From positions 1-42,695 of IMG/VR virus record IMGVR_UViG_3300036832_001439: a stretch of DNA of 42,695 nt, one strand, 5' to 3'. Made by a program: the position numbers and the translations under genes. The notes beneath the pieces were generated by a model, which saw only the letters and a program-made list of their open reading frames with translations, ran no database searches and had not been told where the DNA came from. This document shows positions 6,646 through 42,014 of the stretch, one piece after another (the first letter of the stretch is position 1; each line of letters starts with the position of its first letter). Source of the DNA: a virus.

Positions 6646-7340
6646 ACGACAACGACAACGAGGGTCGAGACTACGGCGGCGAGCCGCAGACGGTGATCAA
6701 CAACATCCTTTTCGAGCGTAGGGACGTGGTGGCCGCCGGCATCGCGTCCGGCATCGCCGAGCACGAGGAGGAGATGGACAAGGTGGGTTGGGACGTCGAG
6801 CCCAACATCTGGTCGATGTACGGCTCCCTGCCGCCCACCGACATCGCCGACAGCATGCAACGGGCCGGCTTTCAGATGATGGCGATGATGTTCAAGCCGA
6901 TCAACTTCCAGCTTCCGGAGTGGGACGGCCCGATCATGGCGCAGGTGTTGCACTTCCTCGCGGACAACATCCGCGAATCGACCGAGGCGCGCGAGGCACT
7001 GCGCAACGACTTCTGCGTGCACGGCATGGACATGCTCGGCTGGATGCTGACCAACGAGGCCTGGATGATCACCGGCGATGACACCGAGGTCGGTGTCGAC
7101 CGCGACGGCAACCAGAACGAGCACTACGTGCGGCCCAGCCAACACCCGAAGCGGATCGAGATCCGGGTGGTCACCGCGGTGGACACCGCCGGGTTCCACT
7201 ACCAGGTGATGCGCGAGCGGGTCAGCAACCGGGTCAGGATGATTGTCGACTTCCGCGAGGACGAAGCGACCAAGCTGCAAGGCCGGTTGTTCGAGGCGCT
7301 GGCCGACGCCGCCTCGGCCATTCCACTGTTGGGCAGGTGA
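6642..7340 (+). CDS. Hypothetical acidic protein (232 aa)
   Basis: Start ATG 6642 lies in an ATGA overlap, and AAGGAGAAGAAC lies just upstream. The acidic protein has an Asn/Asp-rich N-terminus, a helical centre with many Met residues (AGFQMMAMMFKPINF) and a C-terminal beta-like stretch around EIRVVTAVDTAGFHYQV. No membrane helix or metal site stands out. Function unknown; it belongs to the coupled operon 4593-7965. Confidence 0.7.
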   Translation: MNDNDNEGRDYGGEPQTVINNILFERRDVVAAGIASGIAEHEEEMDKVGWDVEPNIWSMYGSLPPTDIADSMQRAGFQMMAMMFKPINFQLPEWDGPIMAQVLHFLADNIRESTEAREALRNDFCVHGMDMLGWMLTNEAWMITGDDTEVGVDRDGNQNEHYVRPSQHPKRIEIRVVTAVDTAGFHYQVMRERVSNRVRMIVDFREDEATKLQGRLFEALADAASAIPLLGR

Positions 7341-25718: not shown

Positions 25719-26717
25719 TCACCCAATGCAGGCATTCCACATGACGCCCATGTCACGACCGATCAGGCGCATGTCGTAGGTCAGTTCGCCCTCGATCCGG
25801 TCGCTCGCGATGGGCTCCATCCGGAAGGTCTTGACCCGGATGCCCTGCGCGTTGCCGGCGAAGTACCCGGTCCAGTTGAAGGTGTAGCCAGCGGCCGGGG
25901 TCATCAGCGACGGCGAGGACGGGCTGTAGGTCAACAGCGCGGACTTGGAGTCGGCGATGAAGTGGTAGCTGGAAGCAGCGTCCTGGCCGACCGCGTCGTT
26001 GATCTCCGGGCCGACGGCGCTGGAGGCGTAGGCGATCAGCACCCGGTCCACCCCGAACAGCGTCGCGAGCAGGTCCTCGGTGACGATGCCGCGCTGGGTG
26101 TACTTGATGCGGTCCAGGATGTCCGGGTGGTTGCGCAGCACCTGCAGCACCATCGCGCCCAGGGTGAGCGTGTTGGGGCTGTAGCCGTTCTGCTCCCGGA
26201 AGGTGACCGCGGCCATGGTGATGTCCATGATCGGGTCCGAGCCGGCCTGGTCCCACTGCAGGAACTGGTTGGCACCGGGCGCGGTGGCCGCGCCGGTCAA
26301 GTCGGTGCCCCAGACGCCGGGCCGGAAGTAGGTCGCGCACCAGTCCAGGTCACGGCGCAGCAGTAGCTGGTTGGTGACGAACAGCGAGGCGTCGCGGTCC
26401 AGGCTGAAGTTGGAGTCCGCGTTGGCCCGCAGCTGGTCGTCAATGTCCTTGTGCACCGCGTAGACGTGCGCGAAGTACTGGTCGGTGGTGACCCGCCAGC
26501 CGACACCCGGGGACTCGGTGCTGGGCGCGCGCCGCTCGGCGTCGGTACGCCGCCAGTCGGACTTGGAGTACTTCCAGTACAGATCGGACTGCTTGTTCAC
26601 CGAGACCTTGGGAAAGACCTTGTCCGCGATGAAGTTGCTGGCGTCCTGGATGTAGGCGATCGAAATGTTCGTCAGCGGGGTGTTGACGTGCAGATCGCTC
26701 TGGGTCGGGTTGGCCAT
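25719..26717 (-). CDS. Major capsid protein (HK97 fold)
   Basis: ATG 26717 with AGGAGATACCGAG upstream. The 332-aa protein has the start of a capsid subunit ([20 protein letters not shown]), an ADP-like E-loop/strand region with [11 protein letters not shown], and a P-domain with [18 protein letters not shown] and a MWNACIG end. Position between the decoration/scaffold genes and connectors agrees. Size fits HK97-type subunits without a fused delta domain. The scaffold is encoded two genes upstream. Confidence 0.87.
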
Positions 26718-26735: not shown

Positions 26736-27134
26736 CTAGTGGACCAGCAGCAGGACGGGGATAACTTCGCCAGCCGCGCCAGAACTGATCGCCAGACCAG
26801 GACCTCCTGCAGCCTCGATCGACGCGCCGTTGGCATCCGGGCCGACCCGGGTGCCGGCGGCCACCGGGCCGCCGCAGACCGCCTTGGACACGCCCGCGAT
26901 GCCGACCGCGGCGGCGCCGCCGATCTGCTGGGGCTTGTTCTGCAGGATGCCGACCAACGGGTCGCCGGTCGCCACGGCCAGTCCGGCCATGTGCTCACCG
27001 GTCAGCTTGACCCAGCAGTACTGCTTGCCAGAGTTCGGGTTGGCCGAACCGGGCTGACCGGGAACGCCGGTGTAGATGCCGATGGTGCCGTCCGCATCCA
27101 GGGAAATAGACCGGAGAGATTCTTCGTAGGCCAT
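26736..27134 (-). CDS. Capsid decoration protein (DUF2190-like)
   Basis: ATG 27134 with GGGGAGTG upstream. The 132-aa Gly/Ala/Val-rich protein (HMAGLAVATGDPLVGILQNK, IGGAAAVGIAGVSKAVCGG, AGTRVGPDANG) has the repeated short strands typical of phage decoration/stabilisation proteins encoded before the major capsid gene. It should sit on the outside of the capsid. Family assignment from pattern and position. Confidence 0.75.
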   Translation of the reverse strand: MAYEESLRSISLDADGTIGIYTGVPGQPGSANPNSGKQYCWVKLTGEHMAGLAVATGDPLVGILQNKPQQIGGAAAVGIAGVSKAVCGGPVAAGTRVGPDANGASIEAAGGPGLAISSGAAGEVIPVLLLVH

Positions 27135-27154: not shown

Positions 27155-27973
27155 TTAGCGTCCGCGCCGGTCGGCGAGGTACTGGTCGTAGAGCGCCGGG
27201 TTCATCTCGAACTGCTTGCCGATCAAGGACTCGCGGCTGATCGGCACGTCGTTCTTGGCGAAGGTGTCCTCGGCGAAGGCGTTGACCTGGGCCATGATGT
27301 CGCTGTTGTCGCCACCGCCGGCCTTGCCGATCTCGGTGAACATGTCGTTGCTGGCCGCCTCGAAGCACTGCGCCAGCACCAGCTGGTCGCTCTTGGACAG
27401 CACCTCGGCGCAGCGCTTGAGCACCGGGCCGAGCGTCTCGGGCGGTACCGGCAGCGCGTACTCGGCCGCCTTGGCGACGTACTCGCGGGTCAGCCGCAGG
27501 TCGCGCTCGGCCTTGGCCACCTGTTCGGCCTGCTCGGTGCGCTTTTGCAGCTTGGCGATCTCGCCGTAGGCCTTGGCGACCACCTCGTCGCGGTCGCTGT
27601 CGCCCAGGGCCTTGCTCAGCCCGGCCAGCACCTGCTCGGTGGCATCGCTGGCCGCGCCCTCGCCGTCCGGGTCGTAGTCCTGCTCGTCGTCGTCGTCCAC
27701 GACGTAGTAGGTGCCGTCGGTGTCCTGCGCGATGGGGGCGTAGGCCTCCTCGCCGTCCTCCATCTGCACTGGCAGGAAGGCGTTGCCGCTCTCGTCGTAG
27801 ACAAGATCGTCATCGGTGAAGGTGACCTCGTCGTTGTCCTGGTCCGGCATGCTCTCCTCCGGTGACTCGTCCCGCTTGGCGATCAGCATCTTGGCGTGTC
27901 CGTTGGCGTCGGCATCGACCAGAGAGACCTCGTCGATGTCCATCTGGGTCAGCTTGTTGATCCGCCTGCTCAT
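27155..27973 (-). CDS. Capsid scaffolding protein with XkdF-like N-terminus
   Basis: ATG 27973. The first 35 residues (KLTQMDIDEVSLVDADANGH) resemble the start of prohead-protease/XkdF proteins (DEVSLVD-x-x-A), followed by an acidic, probably disordered stretch (DDDDEQDYDPDGEG) and a coiled-coil (KLQKRTEQAEQVAKAERDLR), then a C-terminal helical region. It has no protease catalytic residues that I can see. The most likely role is the internal scaffold for prohead assembly, removed by the XkdF protease encoded at 32664-34322. Confidence 0.7.
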   Translation of the reverse strand: MSRRINKLTQMDIDEVSLVDADANGHAKMLIAKRDESPEESMPDQDNDEVTFTDDDLVYDESGNAFLPVQMEDGEEAYAPIAQDTDGTYYVVDDDDEQDYDPDGEGAASDATEQVLAGLSKALGDSDRDEVVAKAYGEIAKLQKRTEQAEQVAKAERDLRLTREYVAKAAEYALPVPPETLGPVLKRCAEVLSKSDQLVLAQCFEAASNDMFTEIGKAGGGDNSDIMAQVNAFAEDTFAKNDVPISRESLIGKQFEMNPALYDQYLADRRGR

Positions 27974-28011: not shown

Positions 28012-31000
28012 TCAGATCCGCGGAATCTTCGGGATGGCACGCACCACCTTGCCGGCCGTCGAGCCCAACTTGGCCGCACCTGTATTGATCTTGGCTTGCG
28101 GAATCTTGGTCGCCAACGCGGCACCGCCGAGCAGTCCGGCACCGCCGATAGCGGTGTTGCGCAACGTCTTCGGCTTGGGCGGCGCCATCGAGGGCATCCC
28201 GATCGCCTTGCTGATCGTCACCTTGTGCTCGGCGCGCGCGGAGCCGGCCAGCTGGGGCTCGGACTCGTCGCTGACGTTGGTGTTCTCCTGGCGGTGGCCC
28301 ACCCGGTTGCCGCCGAAGTCGGCGAACGGCCCGAAGTCCAGCGGCAGTTCCAGCTGACGCTGCTGGGGCACCGACCAGTCCAGCGACTTCTTCATCCGGC
28401 CACGGAGGGCGTGCACACCCACGCCGGCGAGGTCACCGGGAGCCGCGCCGACCACTGCGCCGAAGCCAGCACCAGCCGGCTTGCGGGTGGCCAGTGCGCC
28501 CAGTCCGGCACCGATGGCCGAACCGACACCCATGCCCTTGAGACCGGCGTTGCGGGCCCGGCGTTCGGCCGGCAGCAGTGCCTTGCTCGCGGTTGCGTTC
28601 TGCGGCTTGAGATAGCCCTTCTTGTGGGCCCGCATGGTGCCCAGGGCGGCACCGGCGATCCCGGCCGGCACACCCAGCCGCGGCCCGGCGATGGCAGATC
28701 CGGCCATCCCACCGGCCATTCCGGCACCGAACTCATTGCCGAACGCACGCGCCTTGTAGCCCTTCTTGCCGGCCACCAGCGAGTGGTAGCCGGGCACCAG
28801 TGCACCGGTGGCGACCCGCCCGGCACTCGGCTTGGCGGTGTTCTGCTGGGGCGGCGTGAAGGCCTTGCTGGTGGCGCTCAGCCCGGCGTTGCGCTGACGG
28901 CGGGCGCTCTGGGCCAGCTTGGTCTGCTTGTTCTGCTTCAGGCCGTGATACGCGCGCCGGGCGCCGCCGATACCGGCAACCCCGAGTCCACCGGCTACCG
29001 CTGCCCCGCCGCCGAGCTTGGCACCGGACTTGATCCGGTTGATGTTGCGGGCCGTCGCCAGGCCGTGCGCCAGGTGCCCGACCTCGCTGGGCGGCGGGGT
29101 GAAATGGGCAGCGATGTTCGGCGCGGCATTGTGCACTGCCGTGGCTGCGGTGGCCCCGAAGCCTGCTGCCCCCAGCCCGCCCGCTGCCTGCCGACCGGCG
29201 CTGGACTTCTTGCGCGCGTGGAAGCCGGCCTGCTCGTGGTGATAGGTGATCGAGCCCGGCGAGTAGGCCTTGCTCGCCGTCGTGTTCTGCGGCTTGAGGT
29301 AGCCCTTGTGATGCGCGTAGAGGGTGCCGAGCCCGGCACCGGTGATCCCGCCGAGGCTGCTGGCCCGCCCGCGGGTCGCCGCCCCGGCCGCGATACTGCC
29401 GGCCGCACCACCGAGGAGTTCCGAGCCGCCGGCCTGCAGCTTGTGGCCCTTCTTGCCGGCCACCAGGCCGTGGAACGGAGAGAGCAACGCGCCCGAGGCC
29501 ACTCGCCCGGCGCTGGGCTTGGTGGTGTTCTTCTGGGGCTGGGTGAAGGCCTTGGAGGCCAGCGAGTAGTGGCGTTGCATGCGCTTGGACTCGGCATGGT
29601 TGGCCACGGTCCCACCGACCAGCGCAGAGCCGAACCCACCGATGGCCATGGCCCCGCCGGCACCGCGCAGCCGGCGGCCGGCCTTGATGCCCGCGCGGGC
29701 GGTCTTCACGCCCTTGAGCGCGTCCATGTGCGCACCGATGGCCTTGTGCTCCGGGGTGCCGGGCGCATGCCACTGGTTGGCCGTCACCGGGTTGAGCTGA
29801 TGCTTCATCGCGGCGCTCGCGTGCCGCACGCCCTGCTGTGCGTGGGTGGCGACCTTCTCGTCACCCCGGTCGATCAGGTGCATGCCGGTCACGCCGGCGG
29901 CTGTACCGGCACCCAGTGTTGCCAGGCCGCCGCCGACCTGCTTGCGCTCCTTGGCGGTGTAGTCCGTCTTGGCCACGTCCATGTCCGGGCGCGCAATCCC
30001 GAATCCGTCCAGCATGTCGTTCCCCTTGCCGATGGTGGAGTTGGTGTAGCCAAGCTGTGGCAGCTTGCCGGTCGACCTCTGGTAATTGATCTTCGGGTGC
30101 TTGTTGCGCTTGTGCGTCGGGGTGCTGAAGATCCGCTTCGGGATGGGCGCCGCGGTGGTGGCCGAGCCGAGGGCACCCAGGCCGATGGCGGTGCTGGCGT
30201 GGCGCAGCTGACTGGCCGCGTGCGCCGCCTTCTCCTCACCGGTTGCCAGCGAAGCAGCACGCCCCGAGCGCAGCCCGGCAACCGCGGGAATGGCCGCAGC
30301 TGCGGTGAGCAGGCCGCCGATCTGTCGCTGGTGCCGCGTCACGGTCTGTGCCTTGGTCTCGCCGGGTAGCCGCTTACCGACGTGGCGGGCGTGCTCGGCG
30401 CACTTGGCCTGGTGGTGCGCGATCAGCTTGTCGGTCCAGTGCTCCTTGGCGCCCTTGGGCCGGAAACTGTGCATCCGCTCCAGTTGCTGCTGGTGATGGC
30501 GCAGCTGGGCGGCATGACTGCCGATCCCGAACGGGTTGTCGTTCTTGGCCACCTTGGCTCCCAACCGGGCGATGTGCTCGACGTTGACGATCGAATGCCC
30601 GAACCCGTGTTCCACCGAGGCCACCTTGTAGTGCCCGCCGCCGACCCACTCGCGCTGCGCGGGCAGGCCCGCGTGGGTGAGGTTGACGTGCGCCGAGCCG
30701 GGGTTCACCCGCAGGATCACCTTGTGCGGCGAGGCCTGCTTGGGCCCGTACTGCGCACCCAGCAACTTGTTGGCCTGGTGCTTGACGCCGCTGCCGGCCG
30801 AGGCCACCCCGCGGTCGGCGAACGTGTGCGCGATGTGCTCGTTCTCGGTGAAGCTGGACATCGGCAGGTGCAGGTCCGAGCCGGGCTGTAGCGCATGCGC
30901 CGCGGCGTGGTCCATCGACAGGCCGCGGTACAGCTGCGGCGCGTTGTGCGGGGCGTGGCGGGCCGCCGCGATCAGGTGGTTGGCGCCCTTGTTACCGAAC

Positions 31001-31449
31001 CGGGCGTTGAGATACTGGCCCTGGTTGGGCTTCTTGGCCCCGGACTCGAAGGCCTGCGCCTTGGTGTCGCGAGCCCGGATCGCCTGCTTGCCCTGAAAGG
31101 TCTTGGCCCACTGCTGGCCACCGCGCACGATGGGCGCCGTCGGGGACGGCGGACGCATGCCGGCGTTGAGCCCCGGGGCGACCTTCGCGCCCGGGTGCTG
31201 CGCGTGGTACATCCCGGCAACGTGCGCGCGCTGGCCTGCCGTGGTGGGCAGCTGGGTGGCGCCCACAGCAGTGGCCGCAACGCCGGCGCCGATCTCCTTC
31301 TTGCGCCGGTCGGTCATCGGTGCGGCCTTGTGCACCCGCGCGGGCAGCTTGCGGAACTGCTTCTTGGAGGTGTGCTTGTCCCAGCGTGCGGCGATGTCCG
31401 GGTGCCGGGCATGGAGGAGCCCCTGTTGCGCCCGCGATTTGTACGGCAT
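28012..31449 (-). CDS. Giant virion-region protein with ADP-ribosyltransferase-like domain and glycine-zipper repeats
   Basis: ATG 31449, 1145 aa. Residues 170-275 have the order of a mono-ADP-ribosyltransferase: LYRGLS with R175, SSFTEN (S199-F-T201), then QREWVGGGHY with Q265 and E267, i.e. an R ... S-x-T ... [QE]-x-E triad at normal spacing (about 92 residues from R to E). After that come basic, Ala/Gly-rich segments and two copies of a 100-residue unit (29270-29556 and 28580-28869) with SKAFT-x-PQ-x-NT, KPSAGRVA and GYLKPQN. These Gly-zipper segments could insert into membrane. ART proteins of other phages are packaged and ejected to modify host enzymes; whether this one is active is unknown. 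It is a large, compound protein next to the scaffold gene. Confidence 0.65.
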   Translation of the reverse strand: MPYKSRAQQGLLHARHPDIAARWDKHTSKKQFRKLPARVHKAAPMTDRRKKEIGAGVAATAVGATQLPTTAGQRAHVAGMYHAQHPGAKVAPGLNAGMRPPSPTAPIVRGGQQWAKTFQGKQAIRARDTKAQAFESGAKKPNQGQYLNARFGNKGANHLIAAARHAPHNAPQLYRGLSMDHAAAHALQPGSDLHLPMSSFTENEHIAHTFADRGVASAGSGVKHQANKLLGAQYGPKQASPHKVILRVNPGSAHVNLTHAGLPAQREWVGGGHYKVASVEHGFGHSIVNVEHIARLGAKVAKNDNPFGIGSHAAQLRHHQQQLERMHSFRPKGAKEHWTDKLIAHHQAKCAEHARHVGKRLPGETKAQTVTRHQRQIGGLLTAAAAIPAVAGLRSGRAASLATGEEKAAHAASQLRHASTAIGLGALGSATTAAPIPKRIFSTPTHKRNKHPKINYQRSTGKLPQLGYTNSTIGKGNDMLDGFGIARPDMDVAKTDYTAKERKQVGGGLATLGAGTAAGVTGMHLIDRGDEKVATHAQQGVRHASAAMKHQLNPVTANQWHAPGTPEHKAIGAHMDALKGVKTARAGIKAGRRLRGAGGAMAIGGFGSALVGGTVANHAESKRMQRHYSLASKAFTQPQKNTTKPSAGRVASGALLSPFHGLVAGKKGHKLQAGGSELLGGAAGSIAAGAATRGRASSLGGITGAGLGTLYAHHKGYLKPQNTTASKAYSPGSITYHHEQAGFHARKKSSAGRQAAGGLGAAGFGATAATAVHNAAPNIAAHFTPPPSEVGHLAHGLATARNINRIKSGAKLGGGAAVAGGLGVAGIGGARRAYHGLKQNKQTKLAQSARRQRNAGLSATSKAFTPPQQNTAKPSAGRVATGALVPGYHSLVAGKKGYKARAFGNEFGAGMAGGMAGSAIAGPRLGVPAGIAGAALGTMRAHKKGYLKPQNATASKALLPAERRARNAGLKGMGVGSAIGAGLGALATRKPAGAGFGAVVGAAPGDLAGVGVHALRGRMKKSLDWSVPQQRQLELPLDFGPFADFGGNRVGHRQENTNVSDESEPQLAGSARAEHKVTISKAIGMPSMAPPKPKTLRNTAIGGAGLLGGAALATKIPQAKINTGAAKLGSTAGKVVRAIPKIPRI
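28580..28869 (-). repeat. Gly-zipper repeat, copy 2 within the 28012-31449 gene
   Basis: Runs from SKAFTPPQQNTAKPSAGRV to GYLKPQNATASKA. Close to the copy at 29270-29556, with the middle (LVAGKKGYK, AHKKGYLKPQN) also conserved. Tandem but separated by about 400 bases. Confidence 0.8.
29270..29556 (-). repeat. Gly-zipper repeat, copy 1 within the 28012-31449 gene
   Basis: Runs from SKAFTQPQKNTTKPSAGRV to GYLKPQNTTASKA, about 95 residues. The ends are nearly the same as in copy 2; the middle is Gly/Ala-rich and variable. Confidence 0.8.
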
Positions 31450-32438
31450 CAGGCCACCGCCAACGCGTAGGTCGCCATGATCTTGGAGAACTGCCCGTTG
31501 GGCGCCCGCTTGAACTTGCGGTCGTAGAACTCCTTGCGGGCCGCGTCGGCGTGCGCCACCGCGCGCTGGTAGCGCGGATTCTGCGGGCCCGCACTGTCAT
31601 CGCGGTGCTTGGAGCCGTAGTGCATGCCGGCCAGGTAGGCCTTGGTCTCGCGGTGCTCACCCTGCTTCTTGGTGCGGCCGGCATTCAACCGGCCGAGGTA
31701 GTGCTCCGGGTAGCCCGAGTGCACCTCGCTGGACATCACGCCGGTCAACGGCGTGGGCGGCAGGTACGTGCGGTTCTTCTTGCGCCGGTCGGTGAGCACC
31801 TGGGCGCGGTCCGCACGGCCCTCGGCAGCCGCGTGCACAGCGCGGAAGCGCTCGAAGTCGGCCTCGGCGTCCCAGGCATGGCGCACATGTTGCTGCGGGG
31901 TGGTGGTGAGCGCATCGCGCACGTGCTGCATCTCGTGGCTCAGGGTGCGCTCGTTGATCTGCTTGGGCTTCACGCCGTAGTTGCGGGCGACGTCTTTGAC
32001 CGCCCGCTTGCGGGGCATCACCATGTGCGTGCGCCCGGTGGAGATGTCGTGGTAGGCGTAGCCGAGGACGTTGCGACCAGCCCGGTGCTTGGTCTCACGC
32101 GCCACGACGTCGCGGTGCAGCGGGTGCTTGCTGGCCTTGGACCGCTTCCAGTCCGGGAAGTCGCGCACCGACGCCGGGTGGTTCAGTGCGTGCCTGGTAT
32201 AGACCCTGGCGTGCGCCTGCTCGCCCAGGACCTGGTAGCGGCCCAGCTGACGCTTGCGGTACTGGCGCTGGTACGCGCGCGCCTGCGCACTCTTGCCCGG
32301 AGCCCGTGGGCGCATGGCCCGGTCATGGATCTTGTCCATGATCTGCTCGCGCTCCTCGGGCGTGGCCGCGCGCAGCCGCCGGCTCAGATTCGTCTCGGTC
32401 TTGGCGATCTCGGCGAGGTAGCGCTCCAGCGCGCTCAT
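31449..32438 (-). CDS. Minor virion-region protein with HExxH metallopeptidase motif
   Basis: ATG 32438 overlaps the previous stop (ATGA). The 329-aa protein is basic and helical. Residues 165-172 are TLSHEMQH: H168-E169-x-x-H172, and about 20 residues later AWDAEADFERF supplies E192/E196, as in gluzincin-type zinc peptidases (HExxH ... E). The N-terminal half (RRLRAATPEEREQIMDK, RQYRKRQLGRYQVLGEQ) is charged. The metal ligands are predicted, and activity is likely but unproven. A role in virion maturation, in cell wall or in host-protein cleavage after ejection is possible. Confidence 0.7.
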   Translation of the reverse strand: MSALERYLAEIAKTETNLSRRLRAATPEEREQIMDKIHDRAMRPRAPGKSAQARAYQRQYRKRQLGRYQVLGEQAHARVYTRHALNHPASVRDFPDWKRSKASKHPLHRDVVARETKHRAGRNVLGYAYHDISTGRTHMVMPRKRAVKDVARNYGVKPKQINERTLSHEMQHVRDALTTTPQQHVRHAWDAEADFERFRAVHAAAEGRADRAQVLTDRRKKNRTYLPPTPLTGVMSSEVHSGYPEHYLGRLNAGRTKKQGEHRETKAYLAGMHYGSKHRDDSAGPQNPRYQRAVAHADAARKEFYDRKFKRAPNGQFSKIMATYALAVA

Positions 32439-32671
32439 GGCTCATCGTCACCGTGGATGGCAATGGCTGCGTTGGCCCACATCATGGTGTTCTGCAGGTG
32501 GGTCAGCGCCAGGGAGGTCTCGCGGCACTTGGGCAGTGAGTCGGCCAGCGAGCGGGCCAGGGCGTAGCAGCGGGTGCGCACCTCCTCGTGCATCGGCCCG
32601 GTCAGGTCGGTGGCCGGGTGGAAGCTGAAGCGCTGGTACAGGTCGTCGGACTTGGAGATCGGCTCAGTCAT
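32435..32671 (-). CDS. Acb2/Tad1-like protein (probable anti-CBASS/anti-Thoeris sponge)
   Basis: ATG 32671 overlaps the preceding stop by 8 bases; the frame upstream is shadow. The 78-aa protein has F-S-F-H-P near the start, R-x-x-x-x-x-LA in the helix, and PKCRETSLALTHLQNTMMWA ending in NAAIAIHG. The S-R-E-x-S-L-A-L-T-x-L-x-x-x-M-x-W-A-N-A-A-I-A motif is the hallmark of the Acb2/Tad1 hairpin domain (DUF7681-type) in phages. Known members form oligomers that sequester cyclic dinucleotides or other second messengers of CBASS/Thoeris, blocking host defence signalling. Length (70-100 aa) fits. Here it is wedged between the prohead protease and the HExxH gene, translated with the capsid genes. 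The ligand cannot be told from sequence. Confidence 0.75.
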   Translation of the reverse strand: MTEPISKSDDLYQRFSFHPATDLTGPMHEEVRTRCYALARSLADSLPKCRETSLALTHLQNTMMWANAAIAIHGDDEP

Positions 32672-34322
32672 CAATGAGCACCTCCTCCCGATGGCCCTTG
32701 CCGTGGATGCTGAAGCCCTTGCGCTTGCCGATCTTGACGTCGCTCCAGACGTCCGGGTCGTGCACCTGCATGCCGATCCACCAGCCCAGCGGCACGGTCT
32801 CGGGCAGCTGCAGGGCGGCACGCTTGTCCGGGGTCATCACGAAGGACTCGATCATGTCGGCGACCTTGTGCACGTCACCGTCCACGGCGCGGCGGTGCAT
32901 GTCGCCACCGATGCGGCTACCCAGCACGTAGTCGTAGGCGGCCTTCTCGATGTCCTCGATCTCGATCAGGTCGTTCTGCTTGTCGATCACGTCCTTGCCG
33001 TCGACCTTGACCACCGAGCACCAGCCGAAGCACTGCTGGCGGTCCTCATCGACCTTGCTGATCAGGCCACTGATGTCGATTTCTGGAGTTACGGCGTCTG
33101 TCTTATGGACCGATTTCGTGGCGCCCTTGCCGGATGCGTGGGTCTGCTCCTTGCCGCCGGTGTGCAGCTGGCCGCCGGCCTTGCGGCCCGCGGTCTTGCC
33201 TTTGTGCTTGCCCTTGGGGATCTGCACCGACCGCGCGGTCTGGCGGGTGGGCAGCACCCGGCCCTTGATCTGCGGCGGGTCGACCTTGGGCGCCTTCAGT
33301 GGGGTGAGCTTGATGTTGGCGGAGGTGGTTTCGTATCCAAATCCAGCTTTGCCAACCGCGCCCAGATCCGCTGCGACCGCCGCGCCGAGAGCCAGCGCCT
33401 CAGCCTTGTCGATCCGACCGTCAGCATGCGCATGCAGGATCATCTCCTGGGCTTGGTCCCAGGCCTTGACCATATCGGCTTGCTTCGGCTTGGACTGGTG
33501 CAGCAGGCGGGTGGCGATGGCCTCGCCGCCGAGGTTCGCGGTGTGCAGCGCGGCGGCTCCGACGACCAGGCCGGCGCTGATGCGCGGATTCTCACGTGCC
33601 ACCGTCGCGCCGGCCTTGACTGCACCGGGCAAGCGTCCCAGCAGATGGCCAGCGCCGGTGCCCATCGGCTTGAGCGCCTCGGCCGAGCCCTGGGTGACCG
33701 GCTTGGTGCTGAACTGGCGCACCGCGCGCATCGAGGACTTCATCCCCTCGGCCACCGAGGGTCCGGTCTTGGCGTTGCGCAGCGCACCGGGGATGTGGCG
33801 CAGGTGCTTGGGCAGCGAGACCGCGCTGATGCCCGCGCCGATGGCCGTGGTGCCCAGCCCGATGTTGTGGGTGACCTTGTCCTTGTCGATCTTCTGGAAC
33901 CTGATCGAGCGGACGTCAGTCTCGATCTTGCGTCGGCCCCGGCCCTTGGTGTGCCCGCGCCCGTTACGCCACACCGGTGACGGGACGTGCACGTCTGCAC
34001 TGCTGGGCTCGGATTTCGCCACCCGCGCAACACGCAATGCTGAGGCGATACCCCGGTCGACAGCACCAATGCGCGGCAACTTCATGGCGGCGGCATCGAA
34101 CACCTTCGGATGCACTGCCAGTGCTCCGACAGTTCCAACAGCAGTGGCTGTTCCGACGGCAGCCTTTTTCCCGGGGGACATCGGCGGCTTGACGACACCG
34201 TTCGCCTTGTAGACGGTGTCGTAGACCTCGGCGGGATTGAACCCCGGGAACAGCGTCTCGCAGATCTGCCGGAATCCGGGGTCCAGGTCAGCCAACTTGC
34301 TCACCACGGCGGCACTGTCCAT
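32664..34322 (-). CDS. XkdF-type prohead protease with long N-terminal extension
   Basis: ATG 34322, 552 aa. The C-terminal 145 residues fit XkdF/S78-type prohead proteases: FGWCSVVKVDGKDVIDKQND, IEKAAYDYV, then GGDMHRR (H476), MIESFVMT (S493) and GWWIGMQVHD; H476 and S493 are the candidate catalytic pair. The other 400 residues are unusual: a short helical start (FRQICETLFPGF), a Gly/Ala-rich hydrophobic region (AAVGTATAVGTVGALAV), basic segments and a His/Lys/Gly-rich linker before the protease. Typical XkdF is about 130-200 aa, so this is a fusion. It should cleave scaffold and other head proteins, perhaps including its own extension. Confidence 0.8.
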   Translation of the reverse strand: MDSAAVVSKLADLDPGFRQICETLFPGFNPAEVYDTVYKANGVVKPPMSPGKKAAVGTATAVGTVGALAVHPKVFDAAAMKLPRIGAVDRGIASALRVARVAKSEPSSADVHVPSPVWRNGRGHTKGRGRRKIETDVRSIRFQKIDKDKVTHNIGLGTTAIGAGISAVSLPKHLRHIPGALRNAKTGPSVAEGMKSSMRAVRQFSTKPVTQGSAEALKPMGTGAGHLLGRLPGAVKAGATVARENPRISAGLVVGAAALHTANLGGEAIATRLLHQSKPKQADMVKAWDQAQEMILHAHADGRIDKAEALALGAAVAADLGAVGKAGFGYETTSANIKLTPLKAPKVDPPQIKGRVLPTRQTARSVQIPKGKHKGKTAGRKAGGQLHTGGKEQTHASGKGATKSVHKTDAVTPEIDISGLISKVDEDRQQCFGWCSVVKVDGKDVIDKQNDLIEIEDIEKAAYDYVLGSRIGGDMHRRAVDGDVHKVADMIESFVMTPDKRAALQLPETVPLGWWIGMQVHDPDVWSDVKIGKRKGFSIHGKGHREEVLIDD

Positions 34323-36360: not shown

Positions 36361-38106
36361 TCAGTTCGATCGCTGCAGCCGATAGCCGTACTGACGCTGG
36401 TTGACCATGCGCCACAGCTGCAGTGCCTTGGTGGGAAGCGGCGGCGGGCCTTCCACATGCCGCACCGTCACCGGCACGTTCTTGATCCCCATCGCGTCAG
36501 CGATCTCCAGCCGGTGGTGGCCGTCCCAGACCTCGGCGGCCCGCTTGCCGTCACCGTGGTAGATGCGCATCTGCACCGGGTGGGTGAAACCCTTGCGGCC
36601 CATGTTCGCCTCCAGCGCGGCCAGGTAGCCGGCCTCGCGGCTGGCCGGCGGGAAGCGGTAGTTGCGCAGCGAAGCACTGCTGATGAGGTACGTGCCCTCG
36701 GGATGGCTCTGTTGGGTGATCACCGTGCCCTGCGGCATGTCGGAAGCGCCCTTGTGCTTGCGGTACAGCTTGCGCGGCACCACCCCGCTGCTGACCGCGT
36801 AGCCGTGCTTGGTCTGCTGCCGGATGCCGTACAGGTCGGCGGCCTCGCGCGCGCCCGCGAGGGCGAGCGCACCGCCGGCGACGAACAGGCCGGCCTTGCC
36901 CCGCGGATGCAGCTGCGGGCTGAAGGCCTTGCCCAGATCGTCGTTGTAGTTGTCCTCGGCCCACGGTGGGGTGGCATCGCGGATCAGGTCGCTCAGCTGG
37001 CTGCGCAGCCGCGCTCGGTGCTCCTTGGTCCGGCTGAACCGCGCAGTGTGGGTGATGATGCCTGCCTCGATGGCTGATTCAGGAACGACCGAGCAGCGGC
37101 AGTTCGGATGTGCCGGCGGCACCCACAGCTGCGTGTCGTGGCGCAGCACGCCATGGTGGGCCCGCACCGTGAAGGGGCTGTCGATCTCGACGGCCACGCT
37201 GTCCATCGGTGCGCAGACCGGGCAGACCCGTTCGTCAACGGCTGTCACCCACACTTTCCGTGCCCCAGTGGGTAAGTAGCCGCGCTGCACCGCGTTCATC
37301 ATCGTCAGCTGGGTGCCGAAGTTGCGGGCCACCTGGGTTTCGTTCTCTACCACCAGGTTGGCCCGACGGCTCAGGTAGAGCTTGCCGACATCCCTGGCGA
37401 AGTCCAGCGGGCCTGGAGTCCTTCTGCTGGCCAGATACAACTGCAGCCGCTGCTGGGCTACGCCGACCACGGACATGGATTGACCCGGTGGCAGCCCCGC
37501 CACGCTGTAGAGGATCTGGTTGATCCAGGCGTCAGCCAAGGTGGTGTTGCTCAACGTCCGCAGGCTGACCAGCATGCCTTCCGCGGACTGTTCTCCGAGT
37601 CCGGCTCCCAGCTGCCGGGCATAGTTGGCCGCCCAGCGGTCGGCCAGTGCGGTGCTGGCCCCGCGGTTGGGCAGCGTGACCACCTCGTTGCGCCGGTAGA
37701 CAGCGGGGTTACTCAGTGCTGAGAGTGCGGTGCCGACCCCGTACCGCGCAGCATTTTGCAACCCTGGGGTGAGCGCTGCAGCCACCGATGCCGCGGTGTT
37801 GGCGATGATGGCCCGCTTCAGCTGCCGGCCACCCTCAGAGATCAAGATATGAATGTCGGACCGACGCGCCGAGGGCATAGTCGGATTCCCAGAAACTCCT
37901 GCTAAAGTCCAAGATCGTTTACCGAGAGCAAGAACAACGGCTCCGGAAAGAGCGAGCGCCAGCGAGTGAGAGACGGAACGGCTGTTCGGCTCTAAAAGGG
38001 AGGGGGTAGCAGGAGAAGCCAGGCCGGATGGCAGATCCTCAGGGCGAAGGTCATCAGGGCTGAACGAAGTGAAGCTCTGAGGAGTGAAGCTCAGAGGAAC
38101 GGACAT
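36361..38106 (-). CDS. Mu gpF-like minor head protein fused to a ParB-like domain
   Basis: Start ATG 38106 gives 581 aa; ATG 37878 would give 505 aa and removes an unusual Ser/Pro/Leu-rich N-terminus. The middle matches the Mu F / SPP1 gp7-type minor head domain: ENETQVARNFGTQ, WVTAVDERVCPVCAPMD (C295/C298), PPAHPNCRC (C336/C338). The C-terminal 130 residues contain VWDGHHRLEIADAMGI with DGHHR at 528-532 and VPVTVRHVE, as in ParB/Srx-fold domains. A Gly/Ala-rich hydrophobic segment (RGKAGLFVAGGALALAGARE) lies between. F-like proteins join the portal inside the head and can be ejected with DNA. The ParB-like fusion is uncommon. Confidence 0.8.
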   Translation of the reverse strand: MSVPLSFTPQSFTSFSPDDLRPEDLPSGLASPATPSLLEPNSRSVSHSLALALSGAVVLALGKRSWTLAGVSGNPTMPSARRSDIHILISEGGRQLKRAIIANTAASVAAALTPGLQNAARYGVGTALSALSNPAVYRRNEVVTLPNRGASTALADRWAANYARQLGAGLGEQSAEGMLVSLRTLSNTTLADAWINQILYSVAGLPPGQSMSVVGVAQQRLQLYLASRRTPGPLDFARDVGKLYLSRRANLVVENETQVARNFGTQLTMMNAVQRGYLPTGARKVWVTAVDERVCPVCAPMDSVAVEIDSPFTVRAHHGVLRHDTQLWVPPAHPNCRCSVVPESAIEAGIITHTARFSRTKEHRARLRSQLSDLIRDATPPWAEDNYNDDLGKAFSPQLHPRGKAGLFVAGGALALAGAREAADLYGIRQQTKHGYAVSSGVVPRKLYRKHKGASDMPQGTVITQQSHPEGTYLISSASLRNYRFPPASREAGYLAALEANMGRKGFTHPVQMRIYHGDGKRAAEVWDGHHRLEIADAMGIKNVPVTVRHVEGPPPLPTKALQLWRMVNQRQYGYRLQRSN

Positions 38107-38169: not shown

Positions 38170-41100
38170 TCAGGCCACCTTCGTGATCCACAACTGGCCG
38201 TTGCGCTTGCTCAGCACATAGCGCGGCTGCTCCTGCTTGTGCACGTTCTCCAGTTCCTCGATGACCTCGTCCACCTGGTCGCGCACCGCCTGCATCGGCA
38301 TCGGCAGGCCGTTCGGGCCGCGCAGCTTGAGGTCCGGGTGCTGGCCGTGCAGATCGGCCAGCGCCTCCTTGACCTTCGCCCAGCCCGCGGCCGAGTTGTC
38401 GTGCTCGTCCACCCGCTCGTGGGCAACCTCCAGGTGCTTGTTCTTGGCCGCCCAGTCCTCGTGTTCCGGGTTGTCCTCGGTGTCGCCGGGATCGGGCTCC
38501 TCGCGCTGGTGGGCCTCATACGTGCCGCGCAGCCCCGCCTTGAGCGAGTCGGCGAAGTCGCTGTGCTCGCGCTGCAACTCACCCGTGCGGTGCTTGACCT
38601 TGGCCTCCTCCTCCTTGGCCGCTGCCGCGCCGGCGTCCGCATCGTCGCCGCCGCCGACCCCGGCGTTGAGAATCGCCTCCTGCAGGTGCCAGCGGTCCTC
38701 CTCGGGCGTGCCCAGGTCCGTCTCGTGCCGCTCGGCCTGGCGCTCCAGCCCGACCAGCCGCTTGGCCGCCGGGATGAAGTCGGTGCGCGCCTTGTTGCCG
38801 TTCGGGGTGCCGGGCGGATAGAGCGCCTCGGCCAGGTCCACCGGGCGGTGCTCCTGGTAGGCCATCGGGTGGCGGTCCTGGTCCCACTCCTCGGCGTGCT
38901 TCTTCGGGTCGTAGGCCTTGCGCGCGCCTTCTTGCATCTGGGCGCGCAGCGCGATGTTCTCCTTGCTGGCCAGCTGGTCGCGAATGCCCCGGTAGACGTC
39001 CTTGAGGTTCTCCTTCTCCAGCACGGTCATCGCCGTGTCGTCGTTGGAGTCCCCGTGCACCCGGGTGCGGGTGAGCGGCGTCTTGCCGTGCGCATCCTCC
39101 ACGTAGGTCTTGGTGCCGTGCGGGTTGTCCGCCCAGGCGTCGCGGAAGGCCTGCCGGTTGCCGGCGTACTGGGAGATCAGGTTGTCCCTGATGCCCTTGG
39201 ACGCGTTGTACTTGTGCGTCGCGAGCACCAGGTTGTACATGTCCTTCTCCTCCTGGCCCATCTCCCCCCAGCGGCCTGGCCGCCCGCTGCCCTGAGCCCC
39301 GGTGCCACCACCCAGGCGCCGGCGCTCGCGCTCGGCAGCCTCCGCGGCCTCCCTGGCCTTGCGCCGTGCCTCGGGCGTGTTGGCCGCCAGGTTCTGTGGA
39401 TCGCGGTAGGGGTTGTTGCGCCAGTTCTGGTAGTGCGCCAGGTCCCCGCGCACCTTGCCGCCGGACAGCGTGGACACGCCCTTCGCGTCCTTGTCGGTGG
39501 CCAGCCGCTTGATGTCGCCGGCGATGGTCGGGTCGAAGTAGCCCACCAGCGCGTCCTGGCTCTTGATGTGCCGGGCCTTGACGTAGCCCTCGTCAATCTC
39601 GGCGCTGTTGCCGATGCGCTGCAGGTGGCTCGGCGCCCCGCCCTCGATCGGCTTGCCGTCGCGGTCCAGTTCGCTATCGCCCGTGCGGTCCCAGAACCGC
39701 TGGTCGTGCGGCTTGGTGTAGGTGGCCGATTTGATGTAGTACGGGTACATCGACTGCAGCGAGGTCAGCGCGTACTGGTAGCCCTCGCCGTCCAGGCGGA
39801 TAGTGCGCCCCTTGCCGCTGTGCTGCTCGCGGACCTTGCGGTCGGCGTCGTTGTGGGCGTTCTGCTCCAGGTTGGCATCGTTCGGGTTGGCTACCCGGTA
39901 GGCGTTCACCCAGTCCTCGTACTGGCCCTCATCGACCTCGCCGCGGGCGTGCACCTTGCCCTCCTTGACCGCGTCCAGCAGCTTGCCGTAGCGCTTGCTC
40001 ATCCCCAGCGCGATGTCCCCGAAGCGCTTGTTGTGGGTGAAAGCCGGGTCGAACTCCACCTCGTAGGTGCCCTGCCGGCTGGCCACCGTGAACTTCTTTC
40101 CGCCGCTGACGCTGGCCGCGTAGATGTCCTCGGTGGTCGGCCCGCCGGTGGACCGGGTGCGGATGTAGGAACCGTTCTTCATCCGGTGCATGCCGGACAG
40201 CTTGAAGGGCAGATAGTGGTCATCGCCGTAGCCGTGCGCCTCGTTGATCACCTCGCCCTTGCGGTCGAGCAGGTAGCCGTGACTCGGCGCGGTGTAGCCG
40301 CTGGCCAGGTTGAGCGCGTGGGTGGCCGCGTGCGGGATGTTGGTGGCGATGCGGCCCACCAGCGCATCGTGGTAGCGACTGACCTGCTCCTCCTTGGTGC
40401 CGCCCGGCTCCTTGGTGGGCAGGTTCTTGGCGTCCACCTTGCGCTCCACGCCGCGGTACTTGTAGGCGCTCTTGCGCCCGTGCGGGCCCAGCACCTTCTC
40501 GGCGTCCTCGCCGTGGGAACCCACGAAGTGGCCTACCTTGGCGGCCACCTGGGCCTTGGGTGAGCCGGCCGCGATGGCACCAAGCGCCTTGGCACCGGAC
40601 TCGATGTGGGTGTAGGCCATACCCACGTCCGAGCCGTAGTTCGCGTTCTCGTGGTTGAGCCAGGCCTGGTGGAAGTTCATCCCCTCGCGCCCGATCGCGC
40701 CGCCAGCCACCGCCGCACTGGTCGCCGGGGAGACCCCCAGGGCCTGCATCAGGTTGAAGCTGTGATCGCCCATGGTCAGGTCGTCACCCTTGATGCCGGC
40801 GCCGCGCTCACCGAGCAGCCGCTCCCCGCGCTTGAGCTTGGGCAGCTGGCCGCGGCTGGGCACCACATCGCGGACATTGCCCTTCTTGTCCTTGATCCGG
40901 TACACCACGTCCTGGGAGCGCCGGCCCGCGCCGGCGATGGCAGCCGCGTGGGTCAGGATCGCCTGGTTGCGCATGTGCTCGGCATAGGAGGGGCCGTAGT
41001 CCCCCTCGTGCGCCAGCCCGGGCGCAGCCGTGTAGGAGCCGCGCTGGGCCCGCTCGCGAGCGACGTCACCCGCTGCGTGCATCGCGCCCACGAACGAACT

Positions 41101-41484
41101 GAACTCGCCGTGGTTGCGCTTCCAGTCGCTCTCCTTCCACTTGCGCTTCTTGGCGATGTCGTAGTGCTGCGCCGCGGCCACGCTGGTGGCCACGTAAGAC
41201 TTCACGATGGCCTTGGCCATGGTGGCCCCACGCTGCGCACCGAACTCGTCCAGGAAGGCCTGGATCTCGCCCCGATGCTTCTCGATCTCGGTGGCGGTGG
41301 CGTTCTGGATGGCGTGCAGCAGCATCGCCTTGAACGCATCGCCCTCCTTGGGGTCGTCCCAGCGCCGCATCACGTCCGCGTGCGCCGCGCGTGCGCGAAC
41401 CAGGTCGAAGGTGGGGTCCTGCGGGTCGGCGCCGAAGTGGTGGTGGTCGAGTTGCACCGGCTTGCGGCTGGTCTTGACGGACAT
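38170..41484 (-). CDS. Large unknown virion-region protein (1104 aa)
   Basis: ATG 41484 is chosen, three bases after the HNH gene stop (41487); the frame is open to 41604 but as a shadow of the HNH gene. The protein is soluble, rich in His, Lys, Arg, Asp and Gln, and without membrane helices or Cys. I see no recognised enzyme motif. It has helical regions (RKAREAAEAAERERRRLGGG, an acidic GGDDADAGAAAAKEEEAKV) and an N-terminal LHAIQNATATEIEKHR segment. Its location next to portal and gpF-like genes suggests an internal or ejected virion protein. Confidence 0.7.
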   Translation of the reverse strand: MSVKTSRKPVQLDHHHFGADPQDPTFDLVRARAAHADVMRRWDDPKEGDAFKAMLLHAIQNATATEIEKHRGEIQAFLDEFGAQRGATMAKAIVKSYVATSVAAAQHYDIAKKRKWKESDWKRNHGEFSSFVGAMHAAGDVARERAQRGSYTAAPGLAHEGDYGPSYAEHMRNQAILTHAAAIAGAGRRSQDVVYRIKDKKGNVRDVVPSRGQLPKLKRGERLLGERGAGIKGDDLTMGDHSFNLMQALGVSPATSAAVAGGAIGREGMNFHQAWLNHENANYGSDVGMAYTHIESGAKALGAIAAGSPKAQVAAKVGHFVGSHGEDAEKVLGPHGRKSAYKYRGVERKVDAKNLPTKEPGGTKEEQVSRYHDALVGRIATNIPHAATHALNLASGYTAPSHGYLLDRKGEVINEAHGYGDDHYLPFKLSGMHRMKNGSYIRTRSTGGPTTEDIYAASVSGGKKFTVASRQGTYEVEFDPAFTHNKRFGDIALGMSKRYGKLLDAVKEGKVHARGEVDEGQYEDWVNAYRVANPNDANLEQNAHNDADRKVREQHSGKGRTIRLDGEGYQYALTSLQSMYPYYIKSATYTKPHDQRFWDRTGDSELDRDGKPIEGGAPSHLQRIGNSAEIDEGYVKARHIKSQDALVGYFDPTIAGDIKRLATDKDAKGVSTLSGGKVRGDLAHYQNWRNNPYRDPQNLAANTPEARRKAREAAEAAERERRRLGGGTGAQGSGRPGRWGEMGQEEKDMYNLVLATHKYNASKGIRDNLISQYAGNRQAFRDAWADNPHGTKTYVEDAHGKTPLTRTRVHGDSNDDTAMTVLEKENLKDVYRGIRDQLASKENIALRAQMQEGARKAYDPKKHAEEWDQDRHPMAYQEHRPVDLAEALYPPGTPNGNKARTDFIPAAKRLVGLERQAERHETDLGTPEEDRWHLQEAILNAGVGGGDDADAGAAAAKEEEAKVKHRTGELQREHSDFADSLKAGLRGTYEAHQREEPDPGDTEDNPEHEDWAAKNKHLEVAHERVDEHDNSAAGWAKVKEALADLHGQHPDLKLRGPNGLPMPMQAVRDQVDEVIEELENVHKQEQPRYVLSKRNGQLWITKVA

Positions 41485-41486
41485 CG

Positions 41487-41564
41487 CTACCTCTTTGCCT
41501 GGTACTTGCCGGTGGTGCCACCCTGGCCTGGGCCCTGCACCTGCGGGTTCTTGCGGGCTTCCTC
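41487..41564 (-). repeat. Duplicated portal 3' end, copy in the HNH gene
   Basis: Codes the final 26 residues of the HNH frame. 19 of 26 residues match the last 26 of the portal-like protein (42092-42169); the 17-base stretch GCCTGGTACTTGCCGGT on the plus strand is identical in both copies. Confidence 0.85.
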
Positions 41565-42014
41565 GGACTCCTTGTGCTTCCACACCCGAGCACACGTACG
41601 ACACTCCCGCTTGTTCCTGCCGGGAGGGTGGTAGGTGTTCTCCGGAGTGAATTCATGACCCTGGTTGCAGTGCGTCTTGCGCGCGTTGCGATGGTTGCCG
41701 TGCCGAACTTGATCACTGATGTTCTCTGCGCGGGTACCCCATGCCAGGTTGTCGGCGTGGTTGTTCAACTCGTTGCCGTCCAGGTGTCGAACCTCGCACC
41801 CGTCCGGGCGTGGGCCATGGAACGTCTCGCACACCAGCGCGTGCACCTGGTAGGGCCGTGGCTTTCCGGTTCGGATGCCGATCACCAGATATCCACGATC
41901 ACTCAGCCTGGGCCGCAGCAGACCCTTCGGTCCCTTGATCAGCCCGTCATCGGACACGCGGTAGCGCGGGAACCGGGACACGGCTCGCCAGCTGCGGATA
42001 TGTACGATCGGCAT
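41487..42014 (-). CDS. HNH homing endonuclease with NUMOD4-type N-terminus
   Basis: ATG 42014 has GGAGG 7 bases upstream; an ATG at 42095 overlapping the portal stop is also in frame. The 175-aa protein has a NUMOD4-like part (WRAVSRFPRYRVSDDG), then VHALVCETFHGP, CEVRHLDGNELNNH, NLAWGTRAENI, which is the HNH_3 core (H58, H77, N85, N89), and a C-terminal zinc site C116xxGH ... C138xxC141. It cleaves DNA at an insertion site by analogy. The last 26 residues (EEARKNPQVQGPGQG, TTGKYQAKR) are nearly the same as the end of the portal-like protein. Confidence 0.85.
   Translation of the reverse strand: MPIVHIRSWRAVSRFPRYRVSDDGLIKGPKGLLRPRLSDRGYLVIGIRTGKPRPYQVHALVCETFHGPRPDGCEVRHLDGNELNNHADNLAWGTRAENISDQVRHGNHRNARKTHCNQGHEFTPENTYHPPGRNKRECRTCARVWKHKESEEARKNPQVQGPGQGGTTGKYQAKR

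Follow-up and report, generated by a model that had tools for sequence, protein, structure and literature searches.

An Acb2/Tad1-hairpin gene in a variable slot of a phage head operon as a probable counter-defence gene

Why does the head operon of a phage carry a gene for a putative sponge of nucleotide second messengers, and does that gene serve the head or protection from the host? The question arises from IMG/VR virus record IMGVR_UViG_3300036832_001439, of which the whole stretch from position 1 to 42,695 (42,695 nucleotides; hereafter the window) was analysed. A first-pass annotation had placed a 78-amino-acid Acb2/Tad1-like sponge at 32435–32671 and quoted two stretches of its sequence. 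The coordinates were exact, and the strand, which the annotation had left unstated, is minus: 32671..32435 forms an intact 78-aa open reading frame with an ATG start, the plus strand of the same interval carries an internal stop, and both quoted stretches (R50-E51-x-S53-L-A-L-T57 and MMWANAAIA) are found in the minus-strand translation. We favour, at a probability of roughly 0.66, the reading that this Acb2/Tad1-hairpin gene is accessory and serves counter-defence, occupying a slot of variable content in the head operon.

Sequence profiles identify the 78-aa protein as a new member of the known Acb2/Tad1 sponge family. Comparison with the Acb2/Tad1 profile, a check that the annotation had proposed, gave a significant match (PF24729 Acb2_Tad1_hairpin, E 4.4e-15, 56 bits, profile positions 1–57 of 58), far above the curated cut-off of 27 bits, and the protein also matched phrog_1454 (1.2e-21). 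A single-sequence search of solved structures returned Tad1 (8kbb) at 0.013. When a profile of 63 relatives was used instead, Acb2 homolog 43 (9ptq) matched over almost the whole protein at 1.7e-9, with Tad1 structures at about 8e-4 and T4 Vs.4 at 0.45; the direct match to PHROG 717, the T4 Vs.4 group, reached an E value of only 0.11. PADLOC and NCBIfam searches with the 78-aa protein gave no match. The AlphaFold2 monomer (mean pLDDT 89.9) has helices at residues 7–15, 25–45 and 50–76, a short N-terminal helix followed by two long ones, the arrangement reported for the Acb2 protomer (PMC10419184). Fold comparison was rejected as proof of membership: Foldseek placed solved Acb2 (7uq2) at E 9.9, VIA-align gave Z scores of 5.8 for Vs.4 and 4.8 for Tad1, no better than for unrelated helical hairpins or bundles, and both proteins were listed only amid such unrelated bundles. 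Because the fold searches did not single out Acb2/Tad1, family membership rests on the sequence profiles.

Several characterized or annotated proteins can be set beside the 78-aa protein. The nearest solved relative by profile is Acb2 homolog 43, whose match spans the F-x-x-H element to the C-terminal helix and which has F-A-T where the window protein has W-A-N. Acb2 of Pseudomonas phages PaMx33 and PaMx41 (orf24) is likewise small and has three helices, two of them long (PMC10419184). Tad1 (8kbb, 7uav, 8kbh) shares the C-terminal hairpin pattern C-R-E-x-x-x-A-x-T-x-x-Q/E-x-x-x-M-W and nothing further; it has an N-terminal β-sheet domain (PMC12043709), whereas no Tad1-type β-sheet domain with its gcADPR pocket is present in the 78-aa model, which is all-helical. 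The actinophage phrog_1454 proteins belong to the same subfamily, at no more than 52% identity to the 78-aa protein (tblastn). Some of them are annotated as Acb2 or cyclic nucleotide sequestering protein (in StellaBean; Statler, PMC13348362; Xandras and BigBubba, PMC11953737), the role of the Xandras and BigBubba proteins being given as unknown (PMC11953737). Many actinophage phrog_1454 genes lie outside head operons, unlike the window gene.

T4 Acb2/Vs.4 (7uq2; PHROG 717; PMC10097602), a member of the same hairpin family, permits comparison of the ligand pocket. Its ligand residues are Y8, H11, K23, R79 and F82, and its hexamer interface involves L29, A66, A73 and A77 (PMC10097602). Across the 63 relatives five columns are invariant: H18, R32, W65, N67 and A71 are present in 63/63, F15 is phenylalanine in 62 and tyrosine in one, and R50 and T57 are each found in 61/63. 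The F15-x-x-H18 spacing equals that of Y8-x-x-H11, R32 aligns with K23, and the tryptophan and alanine of the ‘MWA’ element are conserved. Spacing and conservation thus make F15, H18 and R32 plausible equivalents of Y8, H11 and K23, although an automatic loop alignment pairs F17 and A20, rather than F15 and H18, with Y8 and H11. The C-terminal half differs. The hairpin loop is about 20 residues shorter than that of T4 Acb2, and a gap-free alignment sets A68 and A71 opposite R79 and F82, with I72 replacing the usual arginine of the IAR motif. The C-terminal half of the T4 dinucleotide pocket is therefore missing here. T4-type dinucleotide binding may therefore be lost or altered; alternatively, since the A68/A71 state is common to many family members, it could be the signature of a subfamily pocket and no sign of loss. 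The hairpin motif R-E-x-x-x-A-x-T-x-x-x-x-x-x-M-W is common to the 78-aa protein and Tad1, and a similar trinucleotide site has been described at the trimer ends of Acb2 and Tad1 (PMC12043709). With this Arg-Glu/Thr motif kept and the R79/F82 half missing, the ligand may differ from that of T4 Acb2, and a cyclic trinucleotide would be no less likely than a dinucleotide.

These residues bear on the best-surviving alternative, a sponge for some other nucleotide signal, such as a housekeeping signal of the host or cyclic trinucleotides alone, and not for dinucleotides of the 3′3′-cGAMP type. The motif shared with Tad1, the similar trimer-end site and the missing R79/F82 half speak for it. We nevertheless regard this alternative as unlikely, because F15, H18 and R32, the plausible counterparts of Y8, H11 and K23, are nearly invariant in the subfamily, and because ligand preference is not safely read from sequence.

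The counter-defence reading, which we prefer, has to account for the position of the gene. As the annotation had noted, it is embedded in a head operon: MuF, prohead protease, the Acb2-like gene, an HExxH gene, genes for 1145-aa and 272-aa proteins, scaffold and major head protein follow one another in this order on the same, minus strand. The two immediate neighbours were also named correctly. Upstream, the 552-aa prohead protease (32664..34322) has a long N-terminal extension and an XkdF-type domain at residues 421–546 (PF14550 Peptidase_S78_2, 4.9e-13; phrog_3017 head maturation protease, 2.1e-7). Downstream, a 329-aa protein (31449..32438) contains the HExxH motif HEMQH; it had no match in Pfam, PHROG or PADLOC, and no relatives of it were found in viral contigs. 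Beyond it lie a 1145-aa Ala/Gly-rich protein with internal repeats (28012..31449), the 272-aa gene (27155..27973; phrog_13547, with a weak Scaffold match below its cut-off), the head scaffolding protein (26736..27134; phrog_673, 1.5e-10) and the major head protein (25719..26717; phrog_1005, 1.8e-83). By eye, a stretch of the 1145-aa protein (LYRGL...SSFTENEHIAHTFA) resembles an ADP-ribosyltransferase motif; this identity was not adopted, residues 1–400 being without Pfam support. On the other flank, the Mu-F-like minor head protein (36361..38106; PF04233, 2e-8) has a C-terminal ParB-like stretch: residues 468–549 match ParB-like partition nuclease families (phrog_26387), making it a head protein–nuclease fusion. 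Next to MuF lies a 1144-aa protein (38170–41604, minus strand) with no match in Pfam, PHROG or NCBIfam searches; it adjoins MuF in 32 loci gathered as relatives and is possibly a very divergent portal.

The junctions of the Acb2-like gene are tight. A strong ribosome-binding site, GGAGGAGG (32681..32688, minus strand), lies within the 3′-terminal part of the protease gene with a 9-nt spacer to the ATG, and the start of the Acb2-like gene overlaps the protease stop by 8 nt (ATGACTGA, 32664..32671), an arrangement that likely couples translation of the two genes. The stop of the Acb2-like gene shares the bases ATGA (32435..32438) with the HExxH gene's start, so the annotation's 8-base overlap with both neighbours holds on the protease side and becomes 4 nt on the other. 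A decayed or non-expressed passenger, inserted by chance and left without function, would fit the patchy presence of the gene among relatives, but is highly improbable in view of the intact frame, the strong ribosome-binding site, the overlaps with both neighbouring genes and the retention of residues invariant in 63 relatives.

Related loci show how constant this position is. We gathered 80 viral-contig loci with a major head protein at least 64% identical to that of the window, 49 of which keep the protease (a few contigs are represented twice, and the locus L107 stops before the 272-aa gene). Matches to the capsid protein in genomes were limited to two MAG contigs, at 55–63% identity, and gave no indication of the host. 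Across the 49 loci the stretch from the protease to the 272-aa gene, its far border, varies from 458 to 4994 bp and contains differing genes, which suggests a slot for varied cargo behind the prohead protease. Ferritin-like genes (PF00210) occupy the same slot in two loci (L163:3808–4242, 2.8e-17; L184:5236–6156, 9.3e-14). Only one of the 49 protease–scaffold slots, that of L111, holds an Acb2-like gene, and a profile search of the 49 whole records sharing the capsid protein, many of them fragments, found a homologue in two, L111 and G010, the latter elsewhere in its contig. This sparse presence and the varied content of the slot indicate that the gene is accessory, not structural, and behaves as mobile cargo.

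The nearest relatives of the gene point the same way. The Acb2-like genes of the window and L111 are 44% identical, whereas the capsid proteins are 84% identical. The window gene is closest to homologues in L025 and L026 (63–67% in the aligned core), which lie among tail genes in contigs where no relative of the window capsid protein was found, and the L111 gene has closer relatives of its own at 66–68%. Together these values suggest separate acquisition by the window phage and L111, but an AU test did not reject a single clade for the two genes (p 0.459).

Relatives of the gene occur in many settings. They lie beside thymidylate synthase, primase or polymerase genes in Remus, Scottie and Theresita, within lysis cassettes in Jace and Zuko, and near the terminase at the genome end in Marshawn, Whitty, Dashyla and Jasmine. 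In Gordonia phage ChisanaKitsune a relative stands directly behind the portal gene. Among viral contigs, relatives follow portal (L055), terminase (L030, L035, L070) or head protease genes (L029, L041, L058), or stand between the portal and the scaffold or major head protein (L032, L062, L006). A head-cassette position of the family thus recurs in unrelated phages and is not unique to the window. The annotation had judged late timing or packaging of such a protein unusual; as regards position, this stands relative to T4 vs.4, which sits in the vs.1–vs.8/regB cluster outside the head operon, and to PaMx41 orf24, which is encoded on the other strand from the structural genes and adjoins MazG, primase and DNA polymerase genes. 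It does not stand relative to the family, since phages of several types have members next to portal, terminase or head-protease genes. In a survey of 85 upstream genes from 135 non-redundant homologues, the commonest families were portal/protease and terminase, followed by thymidylate synthase, and 13/85 upstream neighbours were related to head or packaging seed proteins. A protease stood directly upstream in five cases (L029, L041, L042, L243, L058) against a rough expectation of about two (n = 135); as four of the five are of one protease type, we did not take this enrichment as significant, and we read the survey as pointing to a recurrent head-cassette position, not to a strong enrichment.

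Three further arrangements were seen among the relatives. In ChisanaKitsune (L007:8016–10280), portal, Acb2-like, RNA ligase and VIP2-like ADP-ribosyltransferase genes overlap or abut, and the last two, neighbours of an Acb2-like gene in a head operon, are possible host-acting genes. In cluster E mycobacteriophages, exemplified by StellaBean (L018:1729–2707), a gene for a ClpP-like protease precedes the Acb2-like gene, away from the head operon; this is another type of protease–sponge neighbourhood. In the viral contig L075, two Acb2-hairpin genes of 80 aa and 71 aa stand in tandem, one at 6983–7198 and the other immediately upstream of it.

The distribution also decides how much weight to give a structural role, in which a small helical protein that has lost nucleotide binding would assist head assembly or form a minor virion component, serving protease, scaffold or capsid. 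Embedding and overlap in the head operon would suit such a role, as would the relatives that likewise follow portal, terminase or protease genes and the missing C-terminal pocket residues of T4 Acb2. A head part, however, would hardly be missing from 47 of the 49 sampled same-capsid records (many of them fragments) and, with a single exception, from the 49 protease–scaffold slots, and the family is found equally in DNA-metabolism, lysis and left-end clusters. Since its relatives occupy so many genomic contexts, we conclude that the family is not a head part and hold a structural role for the window gene to be a slim prospect.

The accessory counter-defence reading suggests a mechanism. The product would probably assemble, as Acb2 does, into a hexamer of helical hairpins and sequester the nucleotide second messengers of host CBASS, or Thoeris-like, systems, so that their effectors stay inactive. 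Given the overlap of its start codon with the stop codon of the protease gene, the sponge would be transcribed and translated with the protease, at the time when head proteins are made. Both the anti-CBASS/Thoeris action and the late timing are plausible. The prohead protease of BAS13 is reported to activate a type I CBASS cyclase, and capsid mutations are described as letting phages avoid CBASS (for both, Richmond-Buccola 2024 and others, cited through PMC11312562 and PMC12409349); staphylococcal Thoeris is reported to sense capsids (PMC12578639). With capsid proteins and a prohead protease as reported CBASS triggers, a sponge co-translated with the protease would be present whenever the trigger is, and counter-defence may thus be timed to the trigger; the XkdF-type protease of the window would be a candidate trigger. 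A stronger version, that co-translation of the sponge with its trigger is purposeful and gives a dose-matched late counter-defence, and that the slot is filled by different protective genes in different phages, we consider decidedly unlikely.

For the sponge family, the locus adds members that reside in head operons, whereas the two studied examples that were checked, those of T4 and PaMx41, lie outside structural operons. For the phages that share this capsid, the variable slot between protease and scaffold may be a place to seek other protective cargo genes.
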